64,000 nt of DNA. Origin: Streptomyces taklimakanensis. Lineage in GTDB: Bacteria > Actinomycetota > Actinomycetes > Streptomycetales > Streptomycetaceae. The stretch is from contig NZ_WIXO01000001.1 in assembly GCF_009709575.1 (NCBI RefSeq), forward strand, positions 1,178,001 through 1,242,000, written 5' to 3'. The notes beneath the pieces are model-generated. The model ran no database searches and was not told where the DNA came from. It saw nothing but the letters and a program-made list of their open reading frames with translations. This document shows, piece by piece, positions 50,290-56,188 of the stretch. The position numbers were made by a program, and so were the translations under genes. How positions within the stretch are numbered: the stretch's first letter is position 1; each line of letters begins with the position of its first letter.

Positions 50290-50739
50290 ATGTCGTTCGA
50301 CGAGGAATGGGCCACTCTGGTGGCCAGGGCTTCGGAGCAGGGCGGCGTACGGACACAGCCGAACAGCGCCGGCCCCGGTGGGGACGGTGGACGGCACGAC
50401 CTGTCGACCAGCCAGGACGAGCTGGGCGCCATCGGGCACGACGCCTACGTGTTGTTCGGACGGTTACGGAAGGACGGCGACATCGCCCGCGAGTCCAGCG
50501 ACACCGCCTCCGTCACCCTGAAGAACGCCGACTTCACCCTGGGCGAAGAACTCGGTCTCACCATCGGCGTGTGGAACTCCCAGCTCAAGACGTTGCTGCA
50601 GTCCTGCGCGCACATCTCCAACCACCTCGATTACAGCGCGAAGTCCTACGCCCGGCAGGACAAGGAGATCGAGGCCCGGATGCGGCACCGCGACGGCTCG
50701 GCCATGTCGGTGTCCGAGATCGAGCGGTACTACAGGTGA
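50290..50739 (+). CDS. Small ESX/WXG100-like helical protein; gene contains a TTA codon
   Basis: A 149-aa soluble protein, mostly helical, with no signal peptide. Two long helices (DELGAIGHDAYVLFGRLRKDGDIA and GLTIGVWNSQLKTLLQSCAHISNHLDYSAKSYARQDKEIEARM) flank a short linker, as in ESAT-6/WXG100 hairpins, and Y120-A-R-Q-D124 fits the Y-x-x-x-D/E type VII secretion signal. Codon 59 is TTA (50464-50466), the rare leucine codon read by the bldA tRNA in Streptomyces, so expression may be tied to development. GGGGG precedes the ATG. I recall near-identical gene pairs as conserved hypotheticals in Streptomyces. The 766-aa gene starts 27 nt later. Confidence 0.82.
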   Translation: MSFDEEWATLVARASEQGGVRTQPNSAGPGGDGGRHDLSTSQDELGAIGHDAYVLFGRLRKDGDIARESSDTASVTLKNADFTLGEELGLTIGVWNSQLKTLLQSCAHISNHLDYSAKSYARQDKEIEARMRHRDGSAMSVSEIERYYR

Positions 50740-50766
50740 CGGGCGGAGAACCGGGGGAACAGCGTC

Positions 50767-53067
50767 ATGGCCAAGTTGACCTTCAGCGATCTGTACGGCG
50801 TCTCCTTCTCCACCCTGGCGGCGGCGGTCTCGGACTGGGAATCGATGGTCACCAAGCTGGAGACGCTGGCGGACGACGCCCGCACCGGCATGGCGGCCAA
50901 GGCCGACAAGGCGGAGTGGAGCGGTGAGAACGCGGAGGTCACCAAGCCGTTCGTCCACAAGACCGCCAAGGAGTTCGACGACGCGGCAGCCCAGGCCAAG
51001 AGCGTCAAGAACATCCTCAAGGACGCGCACGCCGACCTGAAGGCCGTCCAGTCCGACCTGAAGAAAGAGGTCGAGGAAGGGCGCAAGCAGGGGATCCGGG
51101 TGGTGGACAGCGGTGACGGAACCGTACGGTGCGCTTTCGACCGTCAGCCGGACAACAGCCCTCCCTCCGAGGAGCAACGGCGAGCCGGGGAGGACTTGGC
51201 GGCTCGGATCGACCGGTTGATCGTGCGGGCGGCGGAGATCGACGACCTGGCCGCGCGGGCTTTGAAGAGGGTGCACGGCGGTGACACCCACAACTTCGGG
51301 CACGCCACCTACACGTCGTTCGACGAGGTCGAGGCCGAACGGGCCCTTGAGCTGGCGAAGCTGGGCCCGAAGATGTCCGCCGACCAGTACCGTGAGTTCA
51401 ACGATCTGATGACCTTCAACGCCCGGGACCCGGAGTTCTCCACCTCCTTCTACAAGGGCCTGGGCGGCCCCGAGGAGGCCCTGCGCTTCTACGGCCGCAT
51501 GTCGCTCGACGGCACGCTGGGTGACGGGGAGGAGAACAAGGAACGTCTGGCACTGTCCCGTGAACTCCAGCGGAACATGGGCATCGCGCTGGCCACAGCC
51601 ACCGATCCGGACAACAGGACGCATCTGCCGGCCGGTTGGGGTGACGAGTTCCGCAAGCTCGGCACCCAACAGATCGAGCTGGAACCGGGAGCGTTCGGTC
51701 GGCAGCCGTACGGATACCAGGTCCTCGGCGGAATGCTGCGGTACGGGAACTACGACGCGGACTTCCTCACCCCGATCGCGGAACACGTCACCCAGCTCCA
51801 CCACGAGGAACCCATGCGGTTCATGTCGAACAAGCCGGTGGGCACGGGGGACCTGGACCTCGGCTACAACCCGTCCGGCAAGGGCGGTGCCGGCTACGAC
51901 CCGTTGACGAGCGTCCTGGAGGCGCTGGGGCACAGCCCGGAGGCGTTGGAGAAGTTCTTCACCGGCGAACCGACGGTGTACCGGGAAGACGGCACGGTGA
52001 ACCCGGACAAGAAAGCGGAGCTGGGCTACACATACAAGGAAGAACTCCTCAAGAAGGACTTCCCCTGGCCACCGGACACCCTGGCGATGCCGGGCCTGGA
52101 GGGCTCGGAAGACGCCTTCAAGCACGGCCCCAACGCGCTCGGTCACGCGTTGGAGGCCGCGGCCACCGGGCGCGCGTACGACAGCGACTCGACGGAACCG
52201 ATCGAGCACACGGCGGAGCGTGCGGAGTTCGTCGAGTACCTGGTGTCGCACTTCGGCGAGAACCCCGACCTGATCCGCCACAACGAGAACGGGGAGGCGA
52301 AGGACCTGAAGTCCGGCCCGCTCCACGTGCTACGGGACAGTCTCGGCAACATCACCGCCGAGTACATGGGCGACTTCCAACGCGTGATGTACGGGGACGA
52401 TCCGTCGGACCGTTTCCCGATCAACGGCGTACCGGCGGTCTTCGAGAACAGCAGTCATGTGATGCGGTTCCTCGGCGAGGTGGGACAGGACCCGAACGCC
52501 TACGCCACGGTCACCGGTGCCCAGCAGGCGTACACGACGCTGATGGTGGATCGGACCATCAACGAGGAAACGCAGTCGACGGTTTCCCTGGAACAGCGGG
52601 TCAGCAACGCGGTCGCCCCCGGCGCCGTGATGGCGGGGATCATGAGCGAGGCCCGCGCCGACGCCGTCCACGACTACAACACTGCGGTGGTCAAGGACTT
52701 CAACGAGGCCGCAGCGGAAAAGGGAAAGTGGGTCACCCGCACCGTCGAACTGGGGACTTCCCTCATTCCGCAGCGTGTCCCCGTAGTGGGCGAGGTCGCC
52801 AACTGGCTGGCAGAGGACATCACCGAAAGCGTGGTGAAGAGCGCCGAGAGAGACGTCATCGATATCGGAGAAGATGGAAGCCGGGATTACACCAAAGGGC
52901 GTGACGCAGCCATCGACGCAGCCAAGGAGGCCGTCGCGCGCGCAACGAGAGACCATCCGAACATCAACCCCGAAACCATCAGAGACATTCAGGAGGAAGT
53001 TCGCACCCAGACGGGAAACAGCCACAGCGAAGGGGTAAATTTGAGATCTTCCGGTGATGCCTCGTGA
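50767..53067 (+). CDS. Large WXG-hinge protein, candidate type VII secretion substrate
   Basis: A 766-aa protein. Residues 1-105 form a helical hairpin with W51-S-G53 at the turn (helix-WxG-helix, as in LXG/ESX substrates) and a Lys/Glu-rich coiled tail. The middle (about 180-560) is a conserved alpha-helical region unknown to me by name (GDEFRKLG, FGRQPYGYQVLGGMLRYGNYD, DPLTSVLEALGHSPEALEKFF, FEFVEYLVSHFG-like). The C-terminus has a mild hydrophobic patch (SLIPQRVPVVGEVANWLAEDI, about 660-680) and a charged tail. No nuclease or other toxin motif was recognised. Codon GC falls in the last 250 nt. Function unknown; a secreted effector or cell-surface protein is inferred from the N-terminus and the coupled lipoprotein. 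Confidence 0.85.
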   Translation: MAKLTFSDLYGVSFSTLAAAVSDWESMVTKLETLADDARTGMAAKADKAEWSGENAEVTKPFVHKTAKEFDDAAAQAKSVKNILKDAHADLKAVQSDLKKEVEEGRKQGIRVVDSGDGTVRCAFDRQPDNSPPSEEQRRAGEDLAARIDRLIVRAAEIDDLAARALKRVHGGDTHNFGHATYTSFDEVEAERALELAKLGPKMSADQYREFNDLMTFNARDPEFSTSFYKGLGGPEEALRFYGRMSLDGTLGDGEENKERLALSRELQRNMGIALATATDPDNRTHLPAGWGDEFRKLGTQQIELEPGAFGRQPYGYQVLGGMLRYGNYDADFLTPIAEHVTQLHHEEPMRFMSNKPVGTGDLDLGYNPSGKGGAGYDPLTSVLEALGHSPEALEKFFTGEPTVYREDGTVNPDKKAELGYTYKEELLKKDFPWPPDTLAMPGLEGSEDAFKHGPNALGHALEAAATGRAYDSDSTEPIEHTAERAEFVEYLVSHFGENPDLIRHNENGEAKDLKSGPLHVLRDSLGNITAEYMGDFQRVMYGDDPSDRFPINGVPAVFENSSHVMRFLGEVGQDPNAYATVTGAQQAYTTLMVDRTINEETQSTVSLEQRVSNAVAPGAVMAGIMSEARADAVHDYNTAVVKDFNEAAAEKGKWVTRTVELGTSLIPQRVPVVGEVANWLAEDITESVVKSAERDVIDIGEDGSRDYTKGRDAAIDAAKEAVARATRDHPNINPETIRDIQEEVRTQTGNSHSEGVNLRSSGDAS

Positions 53068-53597
53068 GCATGGGAAACATTCGAAGGATCGGTTTTTTCG
53101 CTCCCGTGGCCTCCCTGCTGCTGACAGTAGCAGCGTGCGGGGAGGCCCAGGAAAAACGAGAGTACGCCATTCCGAGTTCTCTGTGCGATGTGGACGTGAA
53201 GCCGGCTACACTCTCCCCTTTCCTGCCCCCCGGCAAGGACATAACCCTGACCGAAGAGGGAACGGACGATTTCAGGAAAACATGCAGCGTGTCGGTCAAC
53301 GGCAATGTGATATTCGAGGTGAAGCGGGAGTGGTGGGAAGAAGGATGGTCAACTCGACGCTTCGCCACCGTACACGCCTATGTGAAACCTGATCACCAGA
53401 CGCCCGACGAGAATTATGTCTACTCGGACAGGAGTGGACTCGGCGTGGTGCGCTGCAGCCCCGAAGAAGATGACCAGGACTTGTTCATTGTGGCCAAAGC
53501 AGATGAGAACACGGCTGACGCGGAAGCCATGAGGAAGTTCCTCGCCGAGTACCACGCTTCCTTGGCAGGGCACGCCCCTTGCGACGAAGTGGAGTGA
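53064..53597 (+). CDS. Lipoprotein coupled to the WXG-hinge protein
   Basis: A 177-aa lipoprotein: leader RRIGFFAPVASLLLTVAAC with lipobox Cys25, then a domain with two conserved-looking Cys (SSLCDVDV, RKTCSVSV) and later VRCSPEED and HAPCDEVE, so four Cys that can form disulfides. Its GTG (53064) overlaps the stop of the 766-aa gene by 4 nt, implying coupled translation. GC is visibly below the window average and codons such as ATA, AAA and TTT are used more. By position it could be an immunity protein, a surface anchor or a chaperone for the large protein. No named family recognised. Confidence 0.85.
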   Translation: MSMGNIRRIGFFAPVASLLLTVAACGEAQEKREYAIPSSLCDVDVKPATLSPFLPPGKDITLTEEGTDDFRKTCSVSVNGNVIFEVKREWWEEGWSTRRFATVHAYVKPDHQTPDENYVYSDRSGLGVVRCSPEEDDQDLFIVAKADENTADAEAMRKFLAEYHASLAGHAPCDEVE

Positions 53598-53599
53598 CT

Positions 53600-53653
53600 C
53601 GGCACCGGTGTGGGCGAGACCACCTACAAACGGTCTCGCCCACACCGGTGCCG
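53600..53653. terminator. Strong bidirectional terminator, WXG cassette / pepN
   Basis: Perfect 22-bp stem (53600-53621 with 53632-53653) around loop ACCTACAAAC. The right arm touches the pepN stop codon and the left lies 2 nt after the lipoprotein stop, so it serves both convergent units. Confidence 0.9.
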
Positions 53654-56188
53654 TCAGTGCGCCTCGCGGACGCGCAGGGCGCGGGCGAGGTCGTCGAGCG
53701 CGTCGGTCAGGCCACGGCGCAGGGCTGCGGTGAGGTCGGGGGCGGCCAGGCACCTCTCCCCCGCCGTCAGGGTGTCGGGGTCGGTGAAGGGCCGGGGGAA
53801 GCCGTAGTGGGTCAGGGCCTGGGCGACGGCCTCTCCTCGACGGGCGGCGAGGGCGGGGGCCTGTTCGAAGTAGCGGGGAACGTAGTCGCGCAGCAGGTCG
53901 CGCTGCTCGGGGTGCCAGAAGCCCTGGAGGGTGGCGACGAGTCCGTAGGTGGAGAGGGTGTCGGCCTCGTCGAACACGGCCTGCCAGGCGGCTTCCTTGG
54001 CCTCGGGGTCGGGCAGGGCGGCGCGGCAGCGGGCGGCCCCCTCGGTGCCGGTGGCGCTGGGGTCGGCGTCGAGGGCGGTGTCGATGTCGTCGGGTCCGGC
54101 GGCGCCGAGGGCGGCCAGCCGGTGCAGCAGCCGCCACCGCAGTTCGTGGTCGAGGGGTTGTTCGCCGGGAAGGGTCTCGGTGTCCCACCAGGCGCGGAGC
54201 TCACGGGGGTCGGTGGTGCTGTCGATCAGGGTGCGCACGGCGGTCAGTCGCGCGCCTCCCCCGCCGTCCCGCCCGCCGCTGGGGGTGTTCTCCAGGAGGG
54301 CGCGGGCGGTGTGGGTGATGGTCTCCAGGGCGGCCGTGCGCCGCTGCGGTGCGAGGTAGCGGTCGGCGAGTTCGTTGCGGGCGAAGCCGAGGACGCCGGC
54401 GGCGATGGCGTTGTCGGTTTCGTGGGGCAGGTTGTCGCGGGCGGTGTCCAGGTATTCGGCGGGCGGGAGCTCGCCGTCGCGGACCGTGTCGCGCAGCGCG
54501 TTCCAGACGGTGGCGCGGGCGATCGGGGTGGGCAGGGCGGACAGGTGGTGCCGTGCGGTCCGTCGGGAGGTCTCGTCGAGGCGGATCTTGGCGTAGGTCA
54601 GGTCGCGATCGTTGAGGAGGACGAGGTCGGGGCGGGGGCCGTCGGCGGTGAGGGTGTGCCGGTCGTCGTCGGCGGCCACGTCGATCTCCAGGGGGTCGCG
54701 TGGCACGAGGGCCCCGCTTCCGTCGGCGGCCAGGTCGTAGGGGGTGACGGCGATGCGGTGAGGACGGTTGCCGGTGTGGGTGATCTCCAGATTCCAGCGG
54801 TGGGCGTCCTCGTCGGTGGTGTTCCGGTGGGCGAGGGTGTCGACGCCGGTGGTGCGCAGCCAGCGGTCGGCCCAGGCGTGGACGTCGCGGCCGGAGGCGC
54901 GGGTGAGGGAGTCGACGAAGTCGGCGAGGGTGGCGTTGCCGAAGCGGTGGCGGGCGAAGTGGTCGTTGACGCCGGCGAGGAAGGCCTTCTCGCCGAGCCA
55001 GGTGACGAGTTGACGCAGGGCGGAGGCGCCCTTGGCGTAGGAGATGCCGTCGAAGTTGAGCAGGGCCGTGGCGGTGTCGGGCACCGCGTCGGGTTCGGGG
55101 GCGACGGGGTGGGTGGAGGGCCGCTGGTCGGCGTCGTAGCCCCACGACTTGCGGTTGACGGCGAAGTCGGTCCAGGTGTCGGTGAAGCGGGTGGCGTCGG
55201 CGAGGACCTGGAAGCCCATGTACTCGGCGAAGGACTCGTTGAGCCAGATGTCGTCCCACCAGCGCAGGGTGACGAGGTCTCCGAACCACATGTGGGCCAT
55301 CTCGTGGGCGATGACCATGCCGCGGGACTGGCGCTGGGTTTCGGTGACGGCGGAACGGTGGATGAACTCGTCCCGGAGGGTGACCAGTCCGGGGTTCTCC
55401 ATGGCTCCGGCGTTGAACTCGGGGACGAACGCCTGGTCGTAGGAGTCGAAGGGGTAGGGCTCGTCGAAGATCCGGTGGTAGCGGTCGAAGCAGGCGCGGG
55501 TGATGTCGAGGATTTCGGTGGCGTCGGTGTCGAGGTGGGGCGCGAGGGAACGCCGCACGTGGAGGCCGAAGGGGATGCCGGCGTGTTCGGTGCGCACCGT
55601 GTGCCAGGGGCCCGCGGCGACGGCGACGAAGTAGGTGCTCAGCGGCGGTGTGGTGGCGCACTTCCAGCGGCCGGGGGCGCCGTCGACGCGCTGGGCGGTG
55701 CCGTTGCCCAGGACGGTCCACTCCTCGGGCGCGGTGACGGTGACGGTGAAGGGGGCCTTGAGGTCGGGCTGGTCGAAGGCGGCGAAGACCCGGGGTGCCT
55801 CGGTCTGGAAGCACATGGTGTAGAGGTAGGTGCGACCGTCGGCGGGGTCGGTGAAGCGGTGCATGCCCTCGCCGGTGCGTGAGTAGGCCATGTCGGCCTC
55901 GACGCGCAGTTCGTGGTCGCCCGCGGTCAGTCCGGTCAGGGGGAGCCGTCCCTCGGCGAGGGCGGCGGTGTCGAGGTCGTGTCCGTCGAGGACGGCCCGG
56001 TGGAGGGTGTGGGGCCGTACCTCGACGAAGGTGTCGCCGGCTTCGCGGGTGGTGAAGCGGACGGTGGTGGTGGAGCCGAAGACCTCCTCGCCGCGGGTCA
56101 GGTCGAGGTCGATCGTGTACTGCCGGACGTCGAGGAGGTGGGCGCGGGTGTGCGCCTCGGCGCGGGTGAGTGCTGGCATGGCGCTCAT
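53654..56188 (-). CDS. pepN: Aminopeptidase N (M1 zinc metallopeptidase)
   Basis: An 844-aa M1-family aminopeptidase that removes N-terminal residues from peptides. It has the substrate-binding GAMEN (FNAGAMENPGLVTLRDEF, about 260-277) and zinc site HEMAHMWFGDLVTLRWWDDIWLNESFAEYMG (HExxH-x18-E, about 294-324); FDQPDLKAPFTVTV is the N-terminal saddle block. The C-terminal half is the ERAP1-like helical domain. There is no signal peptide, so it is cytoplasmic. Translation starts at 56188 or three codons later (MPALTRAEAHT). It is convergent with the WXG cassette; chorismate mutase lies 73 nt upstream on the same strand. Confidence 0.95.
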   Translation of the reverse strand: MSAMPALTRAEAHTRAHLLDVRQYTIDLDLTRGEEVFGSTTTVRFTTREAGDTFVEVRPHTLHRAVLDGHDLDTAALAEGRLPLTGLTAGDHELRVEADMAYSRTGEGMHRFTDPADGRTYLYTMCFQTEAPRVFAAFDQPDLKAPFTVTVTAPEEWTVLGNGTAQRVDGAPGRWKCATTPPLSTYFVAVAAGPWHTVRTEHAGIPFGLHVRRSLAPHLDTDATEILDITRACFDRYHRIFDEPYPFDSYDQAFVPEFNAGAMENPGLVTLRDEFIHRSAVTETQRQSRGMVIAHEMAHMWFGDLVTLRWWDDIWLNESFAEYMGFQVLADATRFTDTWTDFAVNRKSWGYDADQRPSTHPVAPEPDAVPDTATALLNFDGISYAKGASALRQLVTWLGEKAFLAGVNDHFARHRFGNATLADFVDSLTRASGRDVHAWADRWLRTTGVDTLAHRNTTDEDAHRWNLEITHTGNRPHRIAVTPYDLAADGSGALVPRDPLEIDVAADDDRHTLTADGPRPDLVLLNDRDLTYAKIRLDETSRRTARHHLSALPTPIARATVWNALRDTVRDGELPPAEYLDTARDNLPHETDNAIAAGVLGFARNELADRYLAPQRRTAALETITHTARALLENTPSGGRDGGGGARLTAVRTLIDSTTDPRELRAWWDTETLPGEQPLDHELRWRLLHRLAALGAAGPDDIDTALDADPSATGTEGAARCRAALPDPEAKEAAWQAVFDEADTLSTYGLVATLQGFWHPEQRDLLRDYVPRYFEQAPALAARRGEAVAQALTHYGFPRPFTDPDTLTAGERCLAAPDLTAALRRGLTDALDDLARALRVREAH

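Follow-up and report, generated by a model that had tools for sequence, protein, structure and literature searches.

A recurrent Streptomyces gene trio that may join a predicted type VII effector to a surface lipoprotein guard

A 64,000-nucleotide stretch of the Streptomyces taklimakanensis genome (contig NZ_WIXO01000001.1, positions 1,178,001 to 1,242,000; hereafter the window) carries a tightly packed, plus-strand unit of three genes, here called AG1, AG2 and the lipoprotein gene, which we read as a secretion partner, a predicted type VII effector and a surface lipoprotein that is likely the producer's immunity guard. We place the probability of this complete reading at roughly 0.5. Its parts differ in strength: it is highly probable, from sequence and predicted models, that AG1 and AG2 form a type VII substrate pair, and the lipoprotein is probably the cognate partner of the AG2 body; that immunity is the reason for this pairing is an even call. 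What is new relative to the original prediction, which was made without database searches, is a shared N-terminal module on unrelated C-termini, downstream families that match those C-termini, and lipoproteins that outlive the AG2 gene, all at the level of sequence comparison; together, these features point to a partner, effector and immunity logic.

The unit runs from AG1 through AG2 and the lipoprotein gene to an inverted repeat. AG1 (50290..50739, ATG start, 149 amino acids) is followed by AG2 (50767..53067, 766 amino acids), whose stop shares four nucleotides, GTGA (53064..53067, a gap of -4), with the GTG start of the lipoprotein gene (53064..53597, 177 amino acids). The layout, the positions and the overlap were thus all as originally described. 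A 22-bp terminator had also been proposed; a perfect 22-bp hairpin does lie at 53600..53653 (arms 53600-53621 and 53632-53653, 22/22 paired, 10-nt loop), between the lipoprotein gene and a convergent minus-strand gene at 53654-56188, but no T run or T-tailed terminator was found there.

AlphaFold2 (AF2) modelled AG1 as a helical hairpin of residues 42-79 and 83-130, with a mean predicted local distance difference test score (pLDDT) of 76.2 and mostly above 90 in the hairpin blocks, and Esx and PE25 chains were among its best structural matches, in keeping with the two-helix protein foreseen earlier. A YxxxD motif had been noted as well; it is indeed present as the candidate export arm Y120-A-R-Q-D124 (50647..50661, plus strand), but the family mostly has HxxxD/E: among 68 AG1 homologues, position 120 is H in 46 and Y in 12, and every one of the 68 carries D or E at position 124. 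Weaker AG1-like matches (G333, G337:C9, G366, G369 and others; E ~1e-4 to 1e-10) occur apart from any counted AG2 match; the family of partners to which AG1 belongs is probably a wider one.

The AF2 model of AG2 (mean pLDDT 85.3, predicted template modelling score 0.84) begins with an N-terminal module, residues 1-175 (50767..51291, plus strand), made up of the W-x-G hairpin, a beta hairpin and a third long helix. The predicted helices of the hairpin, residues 15-48 and 54-107, flank W51-x-G53; the W51-S-G53 turn itself (50917..50925) keeps its W in 74 and its G in 74 of 75 aligned homologues, so that the helix hairpin said to open the large protein is well borne out. The body that follows, residues 176-766 (51292..53064), is all-helical and contains no recognised catalytic domain, which agrees with the earlier remark that the protein had no recognisable domain. 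Some AG2 relatives (L076, L080, L081, L082, L087, L070) have a hydrophobic stretch at residues ~650-700 that is rich in Gly and Ala, turns at a central Pro and reaches Kyte-Doolittle values up to 2.08; it looks able to enter a membrane. The AG2 of the window has no such stretch.

The pair and the trio recur across the genus. In a sample of 81 Streptomyces genomes, AG2 relatives were found in 55. The pairing was counted on the 79 strongest AG1 matches (E ~4e-34 or better), many weaker ones lying outside the count: an AG2-family match came directly after 77 of the 79, and 77 of the 98 strongest AG2-family matches had such an AG1 match just upstream. The loci that were fetched gave a closer view, on 40 AG2 copies that were longer than 600 amino acids (of 45 in the cluster) and that came from hand-chosen loci rather than a random sample. 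An AG1-family gene was directly upstream in 34 of these; in three of the remaining six its place is taken by a small, diverged protein with a similar RLN or NQLP...GG start (judged by eye). On the downstream side, a family A or family B protein was recognised by profile in 32 copies (22 of which had built the profiles), seven more had an open reading frame with a hydrophobic N-terminus, and in the last copy a lipoprotein was read directly, such that a predicted membrane-anchored protein follows AG2 in 40/40. When one strict definition of a lipobox was applied within 300 nt, 24/40 AG2 copies passed, compared with 6/199 other genes of the same loci. With W51 and G53 near-invariant and the pair and trio recurrent in the genus, the trio is, on these comparisons, beyond chance.

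The host genome has three AG2 copies. Among the matches listed, the named homologues were all from Streptomyces, some of them labelled AG1, AG2 or DUF6571 without a function. We found no published work on DUF6571, nor any that links an AG1/AG2 protein with Streptomyces; among the papers listed, the only one to name an AG1 protein together with an AG2 protein concerns HLA-G. The suspicion that the family is widespread and undescribed therefore holds as far as we looked.

One line of evidence for the effector reading is the modular build of AG2. Twenty places that matched mainly the N-terminal part of AG2 were fetched and read. Residues 1-175 proved common to a class of ~480 amino acids (10 rows) and another of ~440 amino acids (5 rows), with an hhalign probability of 100, while the C-termini of the three classes scored no more than 1.2 in hhalign probability against the AG2 body and against one another. 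The downstream proteins sorted by class, and there was no crossing among the 43 sequences compared: the 766-residue class is followed by family A (14), family B (8) or two singletons, the 480-residue class by d2 (10 rows, including L102 and L104, which were placed without a C-terminus comparison), and the 440-residue class by d3 (6 rows), often with d4; L107 stands alone. No d2-type downstream gene was called at L088 or L095, the latter a 4.9-kb contig. Profile comparison detected no kinship among the downstream families, save for a hint that A and B may be related (E 0.0042, probability 8.1). A constant N-module is thus joined to C-termini that vary, and each kind of C-terminus has a downstream gene of its own, as in LXG-Lap-type cassettes. 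The d3 and d4 proteins (L098-L101, L103, L105) show no lipobox at their called starts; they are possibly cytoplasmic chaperones or immunity proteins. Proteins of ~700 amino acids from outside the genus (G456, G464, G421 and others) match only the body of AG2, at ~187-586, and not the N-module, which indicates that the AG2 body occurs with other N-termini too.

The lipoprotein of the window has a hydrophobic N-terminus and a lipobox cysteine, Cys25, after LTVAA, as is characteristic of bacterial lipoproteins. Besides the lipid-bearing cysteine, four cysteines are kept in 13/13 aligned rows of family A (window positions 41, 74, 131 and 173), as would be expected of an exported protein with disulphides. 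The genus sample contained 53 family-A matches. An AG2-family match stands immediately upstream of 39 of them, and ten of the other 14 places were fetched. In six of these ten, the lipoprotein covers at least 142 of the 155 profile positions, and AG2 is gone or eroded. Thus, L120 keeps AG1, a 46-codon AG2 remnant, the GTGA overlap and a near-full-length lipoprotein, and L121 keeps AG1 without AG2, its lipoprotein having a transmembrane-type anchor; L123 and L124 have the lipoprotein alone, although a separate AG2 cassette that has a family-B lipoprotein of its own lies ~4.7 kb from the latter; L125 has AG2 in pieces, and L126 has remnants of AG1 and AG2, each with a near-full-length lipoprotein. 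Among the remaining four, AG2 and lipoprotein are both eroded at L122 and L129, L127 is a 3-kb contig that bears a near-full-length lipoprotein, and at L128 an intact set of AG1, AG2 and family B is preceded by an additional family-A gene. L122 belongs to the host and represents a fourth, eroded set (L122:5055-5659; G000:C1 ~1869055-1869659), in which a remnant of the AG2 tail precedes a family-A lipoprotein; of the 155 profile positions, this lipoprotein matches no more than 1-100. Conversely, no AG2 without a membrane-anchored neighbour was seen (0/40). The contrast between 6/53 and 0/40 gives P 0.035, but since the loci were chosen and are related, it is suggestive only. Orphan immunity genes are a familiar trait of toxin systems.

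A link to ESX, the type VII secretion machinery, was sought through its EccC motor, matches to which exceeded the cut-off in 75/81 genomes. AG2 relatives were present in 55 of the 75 genomes with EccC and in 0/6 without it (Fisher 0.0007, genome kinship being ignored); for the EccC class of at least 745 bits, the figures were 54/68 with the class and 1/13 without, again ignoring kinship. The AG2-family matches merged into 142 places, 20 of which (in 17 genomes) lay within 15 kb of EccC, compared with 0.8 expected under uniform placement. All 20 adjoin the 745-bit class, and none adjoins the 53 other EccC. In 11 of the 17 linked loci, which were picked for their EccC linkage, an AG1-family gene is the first or second after eccC, with eccC, AG1 and AG2 all on one strand; in the remaining ones the AG1-AG2 pair is elsewhere in the locus, on the opposite strand, or reduced. 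Export had been expected to rely on a system elsewhere in the genome, and the host indeed has a complete ESX locus at ~4.41-4.43 Mb, with EccB, EccC, EccD, EccE, two subtilase-family proteases and a WXG100 pair; no AG2 copy was called within it. Taken with the hairpins predicted in both proteins and the Esx-like fold of AG1, the eccC linkage leaves the proposal of a type VII substrate pair with a surface partner well supported. Two further features of ESX loci may be mentioned. A second small/large pair (L016:8274-10383 and others; clusters c8 and c11) consists of a small helical and a proline-rich protein; the N-terminus of the proline-rich c11 is related to the AG2 N-module (hhalign probability 75.5, E 2.4e-5), and a Pfam scan of one example of the pair gave no match. 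Cluster c7 occurs in some ESX loci (L052, L054, L059) as two or three tandem genes of ~290-740 amino acids, adjoining eccC at L052 and L059; one c7 member begins like a protein kinase (by eye).

A mechanism can be proposed on these grounds. The AG1 hairpin would pair with the W-x-G module of AG2, forming a composite signal with [Y/H]xxx[D/E] on one chain and W-x-G on the other, and the EccC motor of the chromosomal ESX machine would recognise this signal, so that the pair is exported. Outside the cell, the helical body of AG2 would bind or act on a target in the cell envelope. Translation of the lipoprotein would be coupled to that of AG2; rich in cysteine and anchored to the membrane from outside, the lipoprotein would bind the C-terminal body of AG2 and so shield the producer. 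The Streptomyces relatives of the trio might then be a family of weapons with guards. As a broader and tentative idea, Streptomyces ESX may export polymorphic, envelope-acting effectors that share one W-x-G module with swapped bodies, each with a helical HxxxD/E partner and a membrane-anchored immunity protein; these would be the T7SSa counterpart of the LXG weapons of Firmicutes, with a non-enzymatic helical body as the killing part, in some cases with a membrane-inserting hydrophobic hairpin.

The main rival explanation is non-toxic: AG1 and AG2, exported by ESX, may be docked by the lipoprotein on the producer's own envelope as a surface tether or developmental complex that serves hyphal development or wall remodelling. 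Streptomyces ESX has been reported to act in sporulation and development (PMC8401907), and the membrane-anchored neighbour that follows every one of the 40 AG2 copies would suit a docking partner equally. The AG2 body itself weighs against a weapon, as it appears to be an evenly conserved helical scaffold without a catalytic domain. A dock, however, would serve no purpose once AG2 is lost, and still the lipoprotein persists at six places where AG2 is gone or eroded; moreover, the joining of one N-module to unrelated bodies, with a separate downstream family for each, looks like effector diversification. We consider such a tether possible, though distinctly less probable than a guarded effector.

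Two other explanations concern export itself. AG1 and AG2 could take part in the working of the ESX machine or regulate it, rather than being its effector cargo, and EspB or PE/PPE-like proteins may have such a role; the position of the pair right after eccC in 11 of the 17 loci picked for that linkage and the kinship of the AG2 N-module with the c11 N-terminus would both suit this role. Nonetheless, 20/75 genomes with EccC have no AG2 relative at all, at 122/142 places any over-cut-off EccC is more than 15 kb away or lies on a different contig, and the three AG2 copies of the host are all outside its ESX locus, which makes a machine part unlikely. That the two are helical proteins that stay in the cytoplasm is very improbable: helical hairpins are common and neither protein matches Pfam WXG100, but such proteins would account poorly for the linkage and co-occurrence with EccC, the near-invariant W-x-G at the hairpin turn, and the membrane-anchored outer partner encoded downstream.

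Little has been published on what Streptomyces type VII systems export; EsxA/EsxB have been tied to development (PMC8401907), and alarmone synthetases have been predicted (PMC12691689). A recurrent family with a partner, a swappable body and a matched surface lipoprotein offers a defined set of candidate substrates, and allows a genetic test of whether Streptomyces uses type VII secretion for competition, development or both. Such a family would also widen the export-arm rule from Y or F to H. On the broader, tentative idea of polymorphic, envelope-acting effectors, kin competition would become a function of Streptomyces ESX.

It remains to place the trio among known systems. The closest annotation is DUF6571/AG2, a name borne in databases by close homologues of the window protein; matched in pieces, the window gene reaches a summed 28.5 bits for DUF6571 (PF20211; cut-off 27), and the whole protein is not listed at E<=1. 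In the mycobacterial ESX heterodimer, one chain bears W-x-G and its partner an acidic arm, an arrangement to which AG1/AG2 may be likened. AG1 also folds, in the model, like Esx and PE25 of the WXG100/PE-PPE/EspB group, but it has no detectable profile similarity. Neither AG1 nor AG2 matched WXG100 (PF06013) at E<=1, one distant relative reaching 18.7 bits against a cut-off of 27.3, and PE/PPE membership was rejected for want of a Pro-Glu or Pro-Pro-Glu start (AG1 begins MSFDEEW, and AG2 MAKLTFSDLYG).

Polymorphic toxins with WXG modules have long been known (PMC3482391), and alarmone synthetases linked to T7SS, some of them in Streptomyces, have been proposed to have putative immunity genes as neighbours (PMC12691689); as described there, both resemble the trio in the WXG/LXG-type N-module on swapped C-termini, the neighbouring putative immunity genes and the type VII neighbourhood. 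AG2 differs in that its body is none of the enzyme domains of the Pfam scan, and in that its partner is anchored to the membrane outside. The LXG-Lap1/Lap2 cassettes of Bacillota (T7SSb), by the account in PMC9600955, have a small helical partner gene at the 5' side, an effector with a helical N-module and a variable C-terminus, and immunity genes at the 3' side; the FxxxD arm of Lap1, near the end of helix 2, sits at a place like that of [Y/H]xxx[D/E] in AG1. The window trio in contrast belongs to an actinobacterial, EccC-type system, has a single partner gene where the Bacillota cassettes have two, bears W-x-G in place of L-x-G and H or Y in the arm, and contains no recognised toxin domain; LXG membership was rejected, as no LXG family matched the window proteins in Pfam at E<=1. 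Likeness by layout extends to TslA/TilA of Staphylococcus aureus, in which, as reported in PMC10730906, a type VII substrate has helical partner proteins and an adjacent lipoprotein gene. A TslA-type assignment was rejected, since TslA has its lipase domain first and its targeting domain last (PMC10730906), whereas AG2 has its helical hairpin at the N-terminus and no lipase match. The lipoprotein TilA is nevertheless reported as a proven immunity protein for TslA (PMC10730906), and on that account TslA/TilA is the nearest described case of a type VII effector neutralised by a lipoprotein.

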